Source: Cyclobacteriaceae bacterium
Lineage (GTDB): Bacteria > Bacteroidota > Bacteroidia > Cytophagales > Cyclobacteriaceae
Assembly (NCBI GenBank): GCA_016787645.1
Contig: JAEUUF010000015.1
Location: forward strand, 62,001 to 126,000
Length of the DNA: 64,000 bases
Reading direction: 5' to 3'
Positions 57,457 to 64,000 of the stretch are shown in pieces; position 1 is the first letter of the stretch, and the number at the start of each line of letters is the position of its first letter. Below the pieces are notes generated by a model. That model ran no database searches, was not told the origin of the DNA, and saw only the letters and a list, made by a program, of their open reading frames with translations. The position numbers and the translations under genes were made by a program.

Positions 57457-59097
57457 CTATTTCTTGAGTCGGTTGTCGGATTGGGACTGGCGGGAGGCAG
57501 CCAAGGCAAGGGCAGCATAGGCGTTTACGAGGCCACCCGTGACGCTGAGTTCGTTAAATTCCGATTCGCCTCCACCCGGGCGTTTCACTTTCAGGCCATC
57601 AAACTTACGGCTGGAGGTCTTGATGATGTCGGCAATTTGTTCGGCGGTGAAGCCGGGATAATAGGACCAAACCAGCGCGGCAATTCCGGTCACCACCGGT
57701 GCTGCCATGCTGGTTCCGCTCTTGGGTTCATATCCATTGTTGGGTACTGTTGAGTAAATGTCCACGCCCGGGGCAAAAACATCCACTGTCTTCTTACCAT
57801 AGTTTGAAAAATCGGCTACGAATTCTTTCCCGCTTCCGGAAGACGTAGCCCCCACTTCGAGCCAGCCCAAGGCTTCCTTGCCATTGAGGTATTTCCGGTT
57901 GGGGTAGTTGCCCTCTTTGTCATTGTCTTGTCGCTCATTTCCCGACCCATGAATTATCAACACGCCTTTTTTCTGGGCATAGGCCACTGCTTCGTCCACT
58001 ACCTCTTTTTGCGGTGAGATACTCTTTCCAAAGCTCATGTTGATGATTTGAGCTCCGTTGTCGGCAGCATACCGAATCGCGTTGGCAATGTCTTTGTCTC
58101 GTTCGTCCCCATTGGGTACGGCGCGCAGGCTCATGATGCGCACATTATCCGCGATGCCCTTGATGCCGATGGCATTGCTTCGATCAGCAGCGATGATCCC
58201 TGCAACATGGGTTCCGTGCATAGGGTCAGGTCCTTTGATATTGTTGTTGCCATATACGCGTTCACGGGGATTACTGTAATCATCACCGATCAGCACCCGC
58301 GAGTCGTAGTCAGGATTGTAGCCATATTCCACAATGACCCGGTAGTGGTCTACGGCCTCCTGGAGGTTCTTGTGGATTTCTTCAAGGTCGGCGTCATCGC
58401 CGGCGTTACGAAGCATCATCTTGGTAAAGCCTTTGGCAAAACTCACCGACGCGCTGGTCGACCGGAGGGAGTCAATGGCTTCACGGCTGAGGTGGTCCGT
58501 TTGCAGCACGGACTTTAGGGTATCCATGCTCGCCTCCAGGTTCTTGTTCAGTTTCAGGTAATATTCATACTCCGATCGGTTCTCTTCCTGCAGCCGAATA
58601 AATTTGTCTTTTATTTTTTTGAAGGACTCGTACTCCTTTCGCTGTTTGGAGGGAACTTTGTCTTCGGTTACCGTGCCGAATTTCTGCTTTAGCCTAATGT
58701 ACTCACGGGTCAGCTCGTAGCTGTCCTCAATGACTTCACCCCCCTTTCCACCAATAAAATTCCAACCGTGGATATCATCGATGTAACCATTCTGGTCGTC
58801 ATCCATTCCATTGCCGGCAATCTCTTTCGGGTTTGTCCAGATTATTCGTTTCAGGTCTTCATGATCGATGTCGATGCCGGAGTCAATGATGGCTACCGTG
58901 ACAGGGGTGGAGGGACGACCCTTCAGCAATTCGAGGTAGGCGCGTTCGGCACTCACACCCTGCACATGATTTTGTTCGGGGTCCAGCAGAAACCATTCCT
59001 TGGGGACGTCTGAACCCTGACCCAGCGCGGGGTACACGGCTCCACCCAGTACAATAAGAAAAAAGGAAACGAGAAAGCGCCTAAGCGTGAGGGTCAT
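57457..59097 (-). CDS. Secreted subtilisin-like (S8) serine protease
   Basis: A 546-residue protease with a signal peptide (ending GAVYPALGQG). The catalytic triad is visible as Asp in VAIIDSGIDIDHEDL, His in GTHVAGIIAAD and Ser in KSGTSMAAPVVTGIAAL. Residues about 105-245 form an unusually long Lys/Glu-rich helical insert (REYIRLKQKFGTVTED, then LQEENRSEYEYYLKLNK) between the first two triad residues; this is characteristic of a Bacteroidota S8 subgroup. A TATTTTTG -7 box lies upstream on the minus strand. Extracellular or periplasmic protein degradation is expected. Confidence 0.92.
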   Translation of the reverse strand: MTLTLRRFLVSFFLIVLGGAVYPALGQGSDVPKEWFLLDPEQNHVQGVSAERAYLELLKGRPSTPVTVAIIDSGIDIDHEDLKRIIWTNPKEIAGNGMDDDQNGYIDDIHGWNFIGGKGGEVIEDSYELTREYIRLKQKFGTVTEDKVPSKQRKEYESFKKIKDKFIRLQEENRSEYEYYLKLNKNLEASMDTLKSVLQTDHLSREAIDSLRSTSASVSFAKGFTKMMLRNAGDDADLEEIHKNLQEAVDHYRVIVEYGYNPDYDSRVLIGDDYSNPRERVYGNNNIKGPDPMHGTHVAGIIAADRSNAIGIKGIADNVRIMSLRAVPNGDERDKDIANAIRYAADNGAQIINMSFGKSISPQKEVVDEAVAYAQKKGVLIIHGSGNERQDNDKEGNYPNRKYLNGKEALGWLEVGATSSGSGKEFVADFSNYGKKTVDVFAPGVDIYSTVPNNGYEPKSGTSMAAPVVTGIAALVWSYYPGFTAEQIADIIKTSSRKFDGLKVKRPGGGESEFNELSVTGGLVNAYAALALAASRQSQSDNRLKK

Positions 59098-59520
59098 GCG
59101 TTTGATCGTTTAACGAACAAAAATAGGGGGCAAACGGTGTGAGGTCCTAAGAAATGTGAAAAAGGCAGGCAAATATTACGCCGGAAGTCTTCCTTGGAAC
59201 ACTTCAGGAAAGGAAATGATGCAACGGGTCACTTTTGGTTCAACAAATCGAACTGCCATGGTCCAACTCGCTCTGCTTGCCGTCGTCATTTTCTTCACCC
59301 TGTTTTTTTACTACGCAGCCCTCCTTAACCGGGATCATGAATCCAGTATTCACAGGGCAGTTCCGGCACACTAGCCTGGCCATGGAGAAATACCCTACTC
59401 TTTCAGATAGGCCGATCTTAATCGAATGCTAATTGCGTGCTGTCGGTATGAGCGTACTTGATCTTAGGCGTGCCTTGCCCGCCTTCGGCACCTACCAATA
59501 GCCGACAGAAACCCATACTC
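59098..59520. other. Gap without a confident gene
   Basis: This stretch holds the subtilase promoter (TATTTTTG box) and an 11-bp palindrome TCGTTTAACGA near 59106-59116. A possible small membrane-protein ORF starts at GTG 59156 (72 codons, one hydrophobic stretch at MVQLALLAVVIFFTLFFYYA) and ends at 59374, but it has no recognised relatives and no clear start signal. A 14-bp copy of the end of the neighbouring tRNA-Leu gene is at 59478-59491. Confidence 0.4.
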
Positions 59521-59555
59521 AAAAAAAAGACCTGGCTTCTTAAGAAACCAGGTCT
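59521..59555 (-). terminator. Intrinsic terminator of the tRNA transcript
   Basis: On the minus strand an 8-bp perfect stem AGACCTGG / CCAGGTCT (59548-59555 and 59528-59535) with a 12-nt loop is followed by TTTTTTTT. It lies immediately after the tRNA-Leu(CAG) gene and ends the tRNA transcript. Confidence 0.85.
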
Positions 59556-59561
59556 CCAACG

Positions 59562-59643
59562 TGCCGAAGGCGGGACTCGAACCCGCATACCTTGCGGCAC
59601 ACGCCCCTGAAACGTGCGTGTCTACCAATTTCACCACTTCGGC
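59562..59643 (-). tRNA. tRNA-Leu (anticodon CAG)
   Basis: An 82-nt class II tRNA on the minus strand. Acceptor stem GCCGAAG / CTTCGGC with A as discriminator, D-loop GGTAGACAC, anticodon stem CACGT/GCGTG with loop TTCAGGG (anticodon CAG, codon CUG), a long variable arm and the T arm GCGGGTTCGAGTCCCGC. The CCA end is not encoded. It is the last gene of a three-tRNA cluster. Confidence 0.95.
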
Positions 59644-59694
59644 GTCTATTCAATGCCCCTCTCCAATATGGAGAAAGGCCAGGGTTGAGGTGAG

Positions 59695-59776
<82 letters not shown>

Positions 59777-59827
59777 AAATCCTTAGCAAGGCGGCAAAGG
59801 TAAAAAAGCTTTCCGTTTCACCCAACG

Positions 59828-59880
59828 CCTCGACAAGCTCCGCTCAAAGTCCACCAAAAGGCCCCTGAGCCTGTCGAAGG
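59828..59880. repeat. Imperfect inverted repeat of a dispersed type
   Basis: CCTCGACAAGCTC (59828-59840) and GAGCCTGTCGAAGG (59867-59880) are imperfect inverted copies. Sequences such as CCTTCGACAGGCTCAGG recur as intergenic repeats in many Bacteroidota genomes, as far as I recall. The element sits between two tRNA genes. Confidence 0.45.
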
Positions 59881-59895
59881 GGTCCCGTGGAAGGG

Positions 59896-59968
<73 letters not shown>

Positions 59969-60118
59969 TTTTATTATAGTTCCCTGCCCGTCTATTCCCG
60001 GCAAGGGACCACAAAAGTAGAATTTCTGGGAAATTCTGGTGCTAAAATCTTGATGCAGAAAGAAATTTCCTCACCGGCAGGGTCAACGGGCAATTCTGAC
60101 CTTATGTATCTTACCTCC

Positions 60119-61279
60119 ATGAATGGAACAGTTACCTTTTCAATTCTTGGGGGAGGCATCGGCGGACTTTCATTGGCAATCGCGTTGCAGCGAAAAGGCA
60201 TCTCCTGTGCCGTTTTCGAGGCTGCCCCAGCTTTCAAACCATTGGGCGCTGGTCTGGGATTGGCGGGTAATGCAGTCAAAGCCTATGCGGACATAGGCAT
60301 TGATAACCAGGTGATCGCCGCTGGGAAAAAACTTCGGTTTGCGAATCTTAAGGACCAAAAAGGAAATTTGATCAGCCGGACTGATGTCGAGGCCATGACG
60401 CGAAAGTTTGGAGTCGTCAATAGCTTTACGATTCATCGCGCCGATCTCCACGACATCCTCTTTGGCATGGTCGCGCCCGGCACGGTTCAATTGGGCAAGG
60501 CCGCTATCGACTTTAGCCAGGATGACCAGGGAGTCACGATAACTTTTGCCGATGGTACTTCCGTCCGTTCAGACTACCTCGTTGCCGCAGATGGCATTCA
60601 TTCCGTCGTGCGCAAAAAGTTGCTTCCGAAAAGCACGCCCAGGTATTCCGGTTATACATGTTGGAGGGCAGTGACTGAGGGTTTCCCGGAAGGGATGAAC
60701 CTGGACGAGACCAGTGAATCCTGGGGACCCGGCAGACGCTTTGGTGCAGTGCCGTTGACGAACCGGCGGGTGTACTGGTTCGCCACACTGAACGCTCCCC
60801 GGCAGGATCCGAAAATGCGTGATGCCCGAATTGCTGATCTGCACAAATTCTACGAGGGTTTTCATTTTCCCATTCCAGAACTCCTGGCGATGACCCGCGA
60901 TGATCAACTTATCTGGAGTGACATCATAGACCTCAAGCCCATAAGACAATTTGCCTTTGGTCGCGTGCTGCTCATTGGCGACGCAGCCCACGCAACGACA
61001 CCCAACCTGGGCCAGGGAGCCTGCATGGCCATCGAAGACGCTGCAACGCTCGCCAACGCGTTGGTCAAGTATGAACCTGCGGAAGCGTTCCAGCGGTTTG
61101 AAGAACACCGCATCAACCGAACCACTGGAATTGTGAATCAATCCTGGACCCTCGGCAAGATTGCACAAGTGGAAAATCGATTCATCACTTCCCTGCGTAA
61201 CGGATTCTTCCGAATTCTGCCCGGATCAGCTATTGAAAAGCAACTGAAAGAACTCTACGAAGTTTCCTTTCAGCCTTAG
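60119..61279 (+). CDS. FAD-dependent monooxygenase (group A, p-hydroxybenzoate hydroxylase-like)
   Basis: A 386-residue flavoprotein. Signature motifs are ILGGGIGGLSLAIALQRKG at the N-terminus (GxGxxG), the DG-type VAADGIHSVVRKKLLP and the third FAD motif VLLIGDAAHATTPNLGQGAC. This is the class of single-component hydroxylases with NAD(P)H and FAD, similar to salicylate hydroxylase and TetX-like enzymes; which substrate it takes is unknown. The open frame begins at 59942 inside the tRNA-Thr gene, so a start at ATG 60119 (or 60104) is required. Confidence 0.9.
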   Translation: MNGTVTFSILGGGIGGLSLAIALQRKGISCAVFEAAPAFKPLGAGLGLAGNAVKAYADIGIDNQVIAAGKKLRFANLKDQKGNLISRTDVEAMTRKFGVVNSFTIHRADLHDILFGMVAPGTVQLGKAAIDFSQDDQGVTITFADGTSVRSDYLVAADGIHSVVRKKLLPKSTPRYSGYTCWRAVTEGFPEGMNLDETSESWGPGRRFGAVPLTNRRVYWFATLNAPRQDPKMRDARIADLHKFYEGFHFPIPELLAMTRDDQLIWSDIIDLKPIRQFAFGRVLLIGDAAHATTPNLGQGACMAIEDAATLANALVKYEPAEAFQRFEEHRINRTTGIVNQSWTLGKIAQVENRFITSLRNGFFRILPGSAIEKQLKELYEVSFQP

Positions 61280-61421
61280 GTCGATTGATCTTTTCGGCCC
61301 TAACGACCATTGGGTAGCACACTTCCTAACATTCGTTGTCGAAAAATATTTTGACCGCACGTTGGATGTGGTCACAATTATTTTCATTCTTGTCAACTCA
61401 GCGAATCAATTGCTCTGCAAA

Positions 61422-61532
61422 ATGAATTTGTCGAAAACGTTTGCCCTGGTTTTTTCCCTGCGCTCCGTCGCCAATCCGTTGATTGTGGTGCTGGTGATTA
61501 TTATTCAACTCCATCTCCCGGGGCGACAATGA
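61422..61532 (+). CDS. Branched-chain amino acid leader peptide (ilv attenuator)
   Basis: A 36-codon ORF with the C-terminal half NPLIVVLVIIIQLHLPGRQ: Ile, Val and Leu fill nine of ten consecutive codons (20-28 and 30). It ends 27 bases before a perfect 10-bp terminator hairpin with a T run, and the next gene is ilvE. This is the structure of an ilv attenuator leader peptide. Ribosomes short of charged Ile, Val or Leu tRNA should stall here. It is too short for standard gene finding. Confidence 0.85.
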   Translation: MNLSKTFALVFSLRSVANPLIVVLVIIIQLHLPGRQ

Positions 61533-61590
61533 CCAACTAACCTAAGCTTGAATCAACTACCGCCCCGATTACCTCGGGGCGGTTTTGTTT
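61519..61590 (+). promoter_or_regulatory. ilv transcription attenuator (antiterminator arm and terminator)
   Basis: The terminator is a 10-bp perfect stem ACCGCCCCGA (61559-61568) / TCGGGGCGGT (61574-61583) with a 5-nt loop and TTTGTTTT after it. The sequence CGGGGCG at 61519-61525, inside the last leader codons, can pair with CGCCCCG at 61561-61567 in the terminator's first arm. A ribosome finishing the leader would cover 61519-61525 and allow termination; one stalled at codons 21-28 would leave it free and favour read-through into ilvE-ilvD. Confidence 0.8.
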
Positions 61591-61629
61591 TAAAATACTT
61601 TAAACCAACTAACGATTGTTATCACTTCC

Positions 61630-62523
61630 ATGAACTCCTACTATTCCGACGACACTGTACTTTTTCTGGATGGCGAATTTGTAAACGCCCGTGAAGCGCG
61701 CACCGATTTGTTTGGGCAAACCTTGCACTATGGCTACGGCGTATTCGAAGGCATCCGGGCCTACCGCACGGTACACGGCACAAAAATCTTCCAGGCCCAG
61801 GCGCATTTCGAACGACTGGCAGAAAGTTGTCGCCTGATGGGTATTCCTCTCCGGTATAGCCCCGCGGAGTTAACCCAATTTTCCTACCAGGTATTGAAAA
61901 GAAACAACCTTTCCAATGCCTACCTGCGCCCCTTGGTGTTTTGCAGCCCGAATATGTCACTTACAACCCCAAGAGAAGTTTCGGTGATGATTGCCGCATG
62001 GGACTGGGGGAAGTACTTCGCCAGTTCGTCTTTGCGTGTTTGCATTTCGTCCTATGAGCGGCCTAACCCTAAGTCAACGCATGTGGAAGCGAAGACCTGT
62101 GGACATTATGTGAATTCCATTCTGGCCACTTCGGAAGCGAAAGCAAAAGGATTTGACGAAGCACTGATGTTGGACATGAATGGCTTCATTGCGGAAGGAC
62201 CGGGGGCCAACTTCTTCATGGAGAAGGACGGTGTTTTGGTGACACCCAAATCCGGCAACATCCTTCCAGGCATTACCCGCAGCGTGGTGATCAAGATATG
62301 CCATGAACTCGAGATCCCGGTTTCAGAATCTCAGATCGCCCCAGAAGATCTTGAGTCTGCGGATGCAGCGTTCTTCTGCGGTACCGCAGCAGAGATAACC
62401 CCGATTGCATCAATCGATGGAATATCATTCCAAAAACCTTGGAGGAAAACTGTCGGGCGCATCGTTCAAGAAGCCTATCACTGCATGGTGCTTGATAAGA
62501 ATTACAGTTACGTGATCGTCTGA
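61630..62523 (+). CDS. ilvE: Branched-chain amino acid aminotransferase
   Basis: A 297-residue fold-type IV PLP aminotransferase that makes Leu, Ile and Val from their 2-oxo acids. Signatures are LHYGYGVFEGIRAYRT, the PLP-lysine in VEAKTCGHYVNSILATSEA (near residue 155) and GFIAEGPGANFFMEKDG, then PGITRSVVIKI and CGTAAEITPI. It is the first structural gene of an ilv operon, 98 bp after the leader peptide, with the attenuator between. The dihydroxy-acid dehydratase gene follows with a 6-bp gap, and the rest of the operon (probably ilvB/N/C) lies beyond the window. Confidence 0.95.
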   Translation: MNSYYSDDTVLFLDGEFVNAREARTDLFGQTLHYGYGVFEGIRAYRTVHGTKIFQAQAHFERLAESCRLMGIPLRYSPAELTQFSYQVLKRNNLSNAYLRPLVFCSPNMSLTTPREVSVMIAAWDWGKYFASSSLRVCISSYERPNPKSTHVEAKTCGHYVNSILATSEAKAKGFDEALMLDMNGFIAEGPGANFFMEKDGVLVTPKSGNILPGITRSVVIKICHELEIPVSESQIAPEDLESADAAFFCGTAAEITPIASIDGISFQKPWRKTVGRIVQEAYHCMVLDKNYSYVIV

Positions 62524-62529
62524 TAGTCG

Positions 62530-64000
62530 ATGGAGCTCAACAAATATAGCCGCACGCTTACACAGGACCCGACACTGCCGGCCTCCCAGGCTATGCTCTA
62601 TGGTATTGGGCTTACTGAGGCTGACATGGAGAAGGCCCAGGTAGGAATTGTGAGCACCGGCTTCGACGGCAATACGTGCAACATGCACCTGAACGGCCTG
62701 GCAACCGAAGTGAAAAAAGGTGTGTGGAATGAAGGGTTGATAGGCCTCATTTTTCATACGATCGGCGTAAGCGATGGTATCTCCAACGGAACGGAGGGGA
62801 TGCGGTACTCGCTGGTCAGCCGTGAGATCATTGCCGACTCTATTGAAACAGTGTGCGGAGCACACTACTATGATGGCCTGTTGGCCGTAGTCGGTTGTGA
62901 CAAAAACATGCCGGGCTCCGTGATGGCCATGGGACGCCTTAACCGGCCTTCCATCATGATCTATGGGGGCTCAATTGCTGGTGGAAACTGGAAAGGAAGG
63001 TCACTTAATATAGTATCCGCATTCGAAGCGCTTGGGGAAAAACTTTCCGGCCACCTGGCCGAGGAAGACTTCAAAGGCATCATCCAGAATTCATGTCCCG
63101 GTGCCGGGGCATGTGGAGGGATGTACACGGCCAACACAATGGCTTCGGCTATCGAAGTGCTTGGTATGTCCTTACCTGGATCGTCGTCCTTTCCGGCACT
63201 TAGTCCGCAAAAACGGGAAGAGTGCCTCATGGCAGGAAAAGCCATACGCCGTTTGCTGGAAAGAGATATCAAGCCACGCGATATCATGACCCGTGAAGCA
63301 TTTACCAATGCGATCACACTGGTCATGGCCCTCGGTGGTTCCACCAATGCGGTCCTCCACCTGATTGCCATGGCGAAGAGTGTCGATATTCAAATCACGC
63401 TGAAGGATTTCCAACAGATCTCTGATCAAACGCCGTTGCTGGCAGACCTCAAGCCCAGCGGGAAATACCTCATGCAGGATCTTCACGCCATTGGGGGTAC
63501 GCCTGCCGTGATGAAGTACATGCTGGATAAAGGAATGTTGAATGGCGATTGCCTCACGGTGACCGGTGAAACCCTCTCCACCAACCTCGCCCATGTAGCT
63601 CCCCTCGAATTCGATGTACAAAAAGTCATTTGCCCGGTTGAGAAGCCCATCAAATCTTCGGGTCACTTGCAGATCCTCCACGGTAATCTGGCGGAGCAAG
63701 GGGCCGTCGCCAAAATCACAGGGAAGGAAGGCGAACGATTCAAAGGAAGAGCGAGAGTGTTTGACGGAGAATTTGAATTGGCGGATGCCATTGCCGCGGA
63801 CAGTATACAACCTGGTGACGTGGTGGTCATCCGGTACGTAGGACCTAAGGGTGCGCCGGGAATGCCCGAGATGCTCAAGCCCACAAGCCTCATCATGGGC
63901 GCCGGTCTGGGTAAGTCGGTTGCGTTGATCACGGATGGAAGATTCTCTGGTGGATCACATGGCTTTGTGATTGGTCATATTACCCCGGAAGCCTTTGAAG
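62530..64000 (+). CDS. ilvD: Dihydroxy-acid dehydratase, 5' part
   Basis: The first 490 residues of an enzyme of about 560; the frame stays open at the end of the window. It dehydrates dihydroxyisovalerate and dihydroxymethylvalerate to the 2-oxo acids that IlvE then transaminates. The iron-sulfur cluster cysteines are in [13 protein letters not shown] and [18 protein letters not shown], and the Lys in the first motif is the carboxylated metal-ligand position. Other family motifs: [13 protein letters not shown] and [16 protein letters not shown], and the C-terminal [18 protein letters not shown] 62530 follows the ilvE stop by 6 bp. Confidence 0.96.

Follow-up and report, generated by a model that had tools for sequence, protein, structure and literature searches.

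A predicted leader-peptide attenuator of the ilv-leu operon in Cyclobacteriaceae and a conserved box downstream of its terminator

The 64,000-nucleotide stretch of a Cyclobacteriaceae genome analyzed here (the window) ends in genes for branched-chain amino acid synthesis, and a short open reading frame (ORF) rich in Leu, Ile, and Val codons and a hairpin lie directly upstream of them. This arrangement raises the question of whether a translated leader peptide controls transcription of these genes and whether anything else acts on the same terminator. From the sequence and its conservation, we consider it probable (roughly 0.87) that the ilv-leu operon is controlled by ribosome-mediated transcription attenuation in which the final codons of the leader also contain the antiterminator strand. 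A conserved box behind the terminator, at a nearly fixed distance, may add a second layer of control.

Leader, terminator, and alternative pairing

The genes concerned are on the plus strand. A branched-chain aminotransferase gene, ilvE (61630-62523, named by resemblance), is followed by a dihydroxyacid dehydratase gene, ilvD (62530-64000, PF00920), which continues past the window end; beyond the window, the same locus (L062) carries ilvB-ilvN-ilvC-leuC-leuD-leuB-leuA, with names taken from sequence resemblance rather than from a family search. A search of positions 59000 to 64000 with Rfam matched no family to the leader region and returned three tRNAs and one match below the gathering score. 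The three tRNA genes are clustered on the minus strand at 59562-59968, upstream of a monooxygenase-like gene.

The leader ORF (61422-61532, plus strand) has 36 codons and a TGA stop, with its ATG at 61422 and its stop codon at 61530-61532, and encodes the peptide MNLSKTFALVFSLRSVANPLIVVLVIIIQLHLPGRQ. Its codons 20 to 28 (61479-61505), which read LIVVLVIII, are the presumed control codons, and codons 30 and 32 are Leu codons too. When ORFs were counted from their first ATG, the two strands of the window gave 634 of 10 to 60 codons, and none other than the leader contains a stretch of nine Leu/Ile/Val codons out of nine; the runner-up reaches seven. In a Markov control of ten resampled windows, none of 9,565 such ORFs had nine and one had eight. 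The codon run is not due to chance.

Downstream of the leader lies an intrinsic terminator hairpin of 10 bp (61559-61583, plus strand), with G-C at 8 of its 10 pairs and the five-nucleotide loop TTACC, followed by an interrupted T tract, TTTTGTTTT (61583-61591). The antiterminator strand, CGGGGCG (61519-61525), lies inside leader codons 33 to 35 and is the exact complement of CGCCCCG (61561-61567) in the 5' arm of the terminator; the last codon of the Leu/Ile/Val run lies 13 nt upstream of this strand and the stop codon 4 nt downstream. A preliminary description had reported the 36-codon ORF and its codon run, the 10-bp terminator, the CGGGGCG complementarity, and the downstream ilvE-ilvD pair, and its coordinates proved exact to the base.

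The folding energy of the whole region is unremarkable (z of -1.58; 12 of 200 shuffles fold equally well). The region is thus not unusually structured, and the case stands on its parts and their conservation rather than on folding energy. When the window RNA was folded with only the 5' arm of the terminator made, the antiterminator formed (-16.0); when the RNA up to 61545 was masked, the terminator formed (-24.4). In the complete RNA, the terminator is the more stable of the two (-25.5 versus -16.9 for the antiterminator), so the switch needs a kinetic order. Upstream of the G-run, the leader folds somewhat better than shuffled sequences (mean z of -1.0 over the 58 aligned loci described below; -0.46 in the window), and a protector pairing between the G-run and the upstream leader scores slightly above shuffled sequences in stability, with a mean z of -0.7, 11 of 58 below -1.5, and the window at -0.4. 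A pause or protector (1:2) hairpin of the kind in E. coli trp may or may not be present, and the view in the preliminary description that the switch lacks a separate pause hairpin is to be taken as tentative.

By these distances, a ribosome at the stop codon would cover positions 61519 to 61525, and one in codons 20 to 28 would leave that strand free. With charged Leu, Ile, and Val tRNAs abundant, a translating ribosome would be expected to reach the stop at 61530 and mask 61519-61525; the terminator at 61559-61583 would then form, and transcription would stop before ilvE. With these tRNAs scarce, the ribosome would halt within codons 20 to 28 and leave CGGGGCG exposed, which could pair with the emerging 5' arm of the terminator so that RNA polymerase would continue into ilvE. 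Leader translation, ribosome stalling, and read-through, in this direction, are what the layout predicts.

Conservation among relatives

A search for IlvE covered 58 genomes, from which 29 same-genus loci were taken (L002-L030), the window's own locus among them. All 29 have, as seen by eye, a GC-rich terminator and a downstream box; L020 and L026 each have one base of it changed, and L031, which belongs to another family, is without the box. From named genomes, the best 80 of 434 ilvE relatives were taken, and 58 of these 80 share the terminator-and-box layout of the window (L082-L137, L144, and L154). The box-bearing loci are mostly from Cyclobacteriaceae, Flammeovirgaceae, and other Cytophagales MAGs, plus Chryseotalea sanaruensis. 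The two sets are not independent, as L002-L031 share contigs with the named-genome set. The comparison below uses 58 distinct rows, namely the window and the 58 layout loci minus the duplicate L126, all picked because they have the box; the 22 loci that lack it (L138-L143, L145-L153, and L155-L161) were treated as a separate group.

The leader frame is kept in 57 of the 58 rows, each of which has a frame with at least six Leu/Ile/Val codons in nine (frames were accepted with or without a start codon). The best nine-codon count is 9 in 13 rows, 8 in 33, 7 in 8, and 6 in 3; the remaining row, L092, has no leader (best count, 3 of 9). The duplex between the leader end and the terminator arm is at or below -9.5 kcal/mol, a cutoff set after the values were known, in 54 of 58 rows, among which L092 is counted with no leader around its pairing; L085, L086, L100, and L117 pair weakly and miss the cutoff. 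The mean duplex energy is -13.6 kcal/mol with the rows' own partners, compared with -7.2 kcal/mol for shuffled leaders and -12.8 kcal/mol for permuted partners. Only 1 of 5,000 permutations was as good, a count that, like the other permutation and shuffle counts given here, overstates significance because the rows are related. The preliminary description had proposed that leader, terminator, and pairing be sought in other Cytophagales genomes; all three recur there, which supports its interpretation.

An alignment of 45 of the 58 rows (A2; L085, L086, and L092 are among those omitted) was used to examine covariation. In the antiterminator, 86.4% of cells are paired, versus 31 to 53% when the strands are slid by one to three columns; shuffles still pair 85.2%, because the columns are conserved, and none of 500 reach 86.4%. 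Six cells carry a double change, versus 1.2 in shuffles (reached by 0 of 500), and they fall in three pairs, a number that 34 of 500 shuffles also reached. Of the nine antiterminator pairs, one is broken in 20 of the 45 rows and another in 11, which leaves a conserved core of about five to six pairs. In the terminator, 98.2% of cells are paired, with 24 double-change cells versus 4.4 in shuffles. Compensatory support is stronger for the terminator than for the antiterminator.

Individual loci show what such changes look like. Leader and arm have changed together in L114 (CAGGGCGG/CCGCCCTG) and in L132 (CAGGGCG/CGCCCTG), and L128, L129, L136, and L137 share a GAGGTG/CGCCTC co-change in which the terminator itself retains a G-U pair. 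As CCTC arms also occur beside unchanged GGGG leaders (e.g., L088, L111, and L121), the co-change of leader and arm is not strict. The antiterminator strand lies within the coding sequence in most rows of this group, and the stop codon is 21 to 33 nt from the terminator arm. Rows differ in how far the G-rich strand is from the stop codon and in which residues it encodes, yet the strand itself persists, and its persistence despite these shifts in position suggests that the RNA, and not the peptide alone, is under selection.

The loci without the box, mostly from flavobacteria, have both leader and terminator in 18 of 22 cases. Among these 22, no leader was found in L142 and L156, and the script found no terminator in L141 and L161, with the hairpin of L141 visible by eye. 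The ilvE loci of Flavobacterium and Chryseobacterium have Ile-rich leaders and terminators. Pairing between leader end and arm is weaker here than in the box-bearing group (mean of -8.9, versus -5.1 for shuffled leader ends; standard deviation, 2.2), and, measured from the stop codon, the pairing strand starts at -1 to +3 in 17 of the 18 and at -10 in the remaining one, L146; L155, L157, and L160 share one upstream stretch and are therefore not independent. An antiterminator strand that starts about the stop codon is in the textbook place. At L150 and L158 (and, by eye, L153), two leader-terminator units appear to stand in tandem at ilvE.

A box at a near-fixed distance from the terminator

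The preliminary description had closed the element at 61590. The parts inside that boundary stand, but it overlooked a box at 61607-61620, a related box at 61326-61337, and a copy of the unit at leuC. The first of these, box B (AACTAACGATTGTT, 61607-61620, plus strand), starts 24 nt past the last stem G (61582). It is AACTAACRRTTGTT, or one change from AACTAACRRTTGTT, at exactly 24 nt in 56 of the 58 rows (counted by eye in L092, L113, L114, and L130) and at 23 nt in L095 and L104, and it is identical to that of the window in 38 of 58. The sequence of the gap between stem and box varies, and the distance from box B to the first ATG also varies, from 2 to 13 nt.

On the other side of the leader, a putative promoter, TTG (61362-61364)-N25-TTG (61390-61392), ends 29 nt before the leader ATG. 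Of the 58 rows, 42 have this spacing, compared with 0 to 10 for other spacings from 17 to 32. Upstream of it lies box A (TCCTAACATTCGTT, 61324-61337, plus strand; core CTAACATTCGTT, 61326-61337), a dyad-like sequence of the form TAAC-N4-GTT(A); with a hand-widened pattern, 55 of 58 rows proved to have a box-A-like sequence ahead of this promoter.

A similar unit precedes leuC. A hairpin and a box (found with a wider pattern) stand before leuC in 28 of 30 loci; the GC core is 25 nt from the box in 24 of the 28 and 23, 24, or 26 nt in the rest, where 25 nt from the GC core corresponds to 24 nt from the last stem G at ilvE. In the window's own genome, this unit lies outside the window (L062:9300-9560) and consists of a hairpin, a T-containing tail, and the box AACGAACAGTTGTT. 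Frames upstream of the leuC box in the 28 loci have at best two to six Leu/Ile/Val codons in nine (six in 5 of 28); as these counts are low and the frames stop at differing places, there is no clear leader at leuC. A related dyad, box C, was found upstream of leuC in 22 of 28 loci with a hand-widened pattern, and we refer to the box downstream of the leuC hairpin as box D. Boxes resembling TAAC-N4-GTTA thus occur upstream of most of the putative leader and leuC promoters. Among the leuC loci (L167-L195), L177, L178, and L185 have leuC divergent from ilvE with the hairpin-box unit still kept. The box is absent at leuC of two genomes, G016 (L191) and G052, the latter from another family (L196).

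The divergent ilvE of G016 (L227, G016:C6:17000-17500) has a box-A-like site, TTG-N25-TTG, an 11-bp hairpin, and the box. No T tract follows the hairpin, and 21 nt separate the end of the stem from the box. No frame at this locus exceeds 5 of 9 Leu/Ile/Val codons, and a branched-chain leader was not found.

Across the 58 genomes, exact AACTAACRRTTGTT occurs at 53 sites in 31 genomes (18 for the reversed pattern), and by coordinates 29 of these sites are at ilvE, 20 at leuC, and 4 elsewhere. In the window's own genome, CTAACNNTYGTT has 5 sites, two of which are boxes A and B, versus 24 for its reversed control. A large regulon was considered and rejected, since most of the 12 genomes scanned have fewer sites for CTAACNNTYGTWA than for its reversed control; in 14 of 30 CTAACNNTYGTWA loci that were inspected, no common function apart from leuC was apparent, and some were short intergenic palindromes. 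At L080 and L166 (in G025 and G000, respectively), a similar palindrome precedes genes that resemble those for acyl-CoA dehydrogenases, and it may belong to another regulator.

Operator-like sites thus recur around both genes, as boxes A and B at ilvE and boxes C and D at leuC, and boxes A and B are likely sites of one putative DNA-binding protein that would constitute a second control layer. What box B does at the terminator is less certain. We tentatively favor, at somewhat less than even odds, a reading in which box B is the operator of this putative regulator and forms with the terminator a roadblock-assisted terminator, in addition to attenuation and not as its replacement. The bound protein would halt RNA polymerase with its active center on the T tract, and the interrupted T tract would be an efficient terminator only with the protein bound; ilvE would then respond to two inputs, the leader peptide and the protein, and leuC perhaps to the protein alone. 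It is the spacing that suggests such a role: the gap between stem and box is nearly fixed, while the distances from stop codon to arm and from box to ATG vary. Given the footprint of RNA polymerase, the observed spacing would place the front of the polymerase near TAAC. The presence of a like hairpin-gap-box unit at leuC without a clear leader, the hairpin and box kept without a leader at ilvE of G016, the similar dyads that precede the leader promoter and leuC (both found with hand-widened patterns), and the location of 49 of the 53 exact AACTAACRRTTGTT sites at ilvE or leuC are all consistent with a roadblock. Less easily accommodated are the imperfect half-sites of the box, the missing T tract and different gap in G016, the leuC loci of G016 and G052 without a box, and the lack of CTAACNNTYGTWA enrichment in most of the 12 genomes, which leaves no clear regulon. 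A more general form of the roadblock reading is possible, though the odds are against it: hairpin, T tract, fixed gap, and operator may be a modular element used at both ilvE and leuC, in which a branched-chain-responsive protein would gate a deliberately weak terminator. If so, the ilvE terminator would have two independent inputs, a stalled ribosome behind the polymerase and a protein ahead of it.

Promoter geometry would also explain a fixed spacing. Box B might be the -7 region of an internal promoter, with the -33 region overlapping the T tract, that provides basal ilvE and leuC expression escaping attenuation. The box contains TTGT, like several leader -7 regions, and leuC begins right behind its box in many loci, as would fit a leaderless message. 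However, a test for a Bacteroidota sigma-A promoter at box B found no -33 TTG at the spacing of the neighboring promoters: at N25 before the TTG of box B, 55 of 57 rows have TTT and the other 2 have GTT, and a TTTTG-type sequence stands at N28 instead of the N25 of the leader promoters. Further, leader -7 regions are variable whereas the box is nearly invariant, and boxes A and C bear a similar motif. We regard an internal promoter as unlikely.

Box B could instead function at the RNA level, as an element that governs translation initiation or transcript stability for ilvE and leuC, and its position directly upstream of both start codons would suit such a role. That it is the distance to the first ATG that varies, with the distance to the hairpin hardly varying, and that boxes A and C have the same motif upstream of putative promoters, make an RNA element improbable; like a promoter function, a translational one is disfavored. 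Finally, the hairpin is a good terminator by itself, and yet we find it scarcely credible that it merely terminates the upstream monooxygenase-like gene or is unregulated, with the ORF a chance occurrence, since it comes after a putative promoter and a conserved leader, the leader, pairing, and spacing are seen again in dozens of loci, and the codon run is not a product of chance.

Comparison with known attenuators

The attenuators of the enterobacterial trp, ilvGMEDA, and leu operons consist of a short leader with control codons for the product amino acids, followed by a terminator whose 5' arm has an alternative partner further upstream, one that becomes masked once a ribosome reaches the stop codon. 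The predicted attenuator in the window is of this type in its leader, its control codons, and its terminator arm with an alternative upstream partner; it differs in that the antiterminator strand lies in the last leader codons. We know of no counterpart in enterobacterial attenuators to a box at a near-fixed distance past the terminator.

Within the same phylum, the available part of a study of Flavobacterium psychrophilum gives strong hints of leader-peptide attenuation before amino acid synthesis operons (PMC9723704), and that of a study of Bacteroides thetaiotaomicron describes short ORFs resembling leader peptides (PMC7366714). As attenuation has already been suggested in print for flavobacteria, the core mechanism proposed here is of a known kind, in a phylum that has received less study. 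The flavobacterial leaders differ from the one in the window in having the pairing strand about the stop codon, weaker pairing, and no box B. In a literature search that covered few subscription journals and no supplements, we found no paper on an ilv leader of Cytophagales and none on a terminator with an operator at a fixed distance. The present comparison provides support for branched-chain leader attenuation in both Cytophagales and flavobacteria, in a phylum for which the literature found had only suggested it.

Leader attenuation of ilv genes has also been described for Corynebacterium glutamicum ilvBNC and for Staphylococcus aureus ilv, the latter together with CodY (PMC11857589 and PMC5794164, as far as the accessible text goes). 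The combination of leader attenuation and a DNA-binding regulator in S. aureus resembles the two layers proposed for the window; the accessible portions of these two papers do not mention a terminator-operator unit with fixed spacing. Roadblocks in which a downstream-bound protein halts elongating RNA polymerase are described for CodY, CcpA, PurR, and LacI, and the accessible parts of these accounts deal with pausing and release by Mfd or Rho and do not mention a site at a set distance behind an intrinsic terminator (PMC10310618 and PMC4132739). The near-fixed distance between terminator and box thus poses the question of whether a DNA-bound protein may determine how well an intrinsic terminator works by halting polymerase on the T tract, and of all parts of this locus, it is the near-fixed-distance box that most deserves to be pursued.
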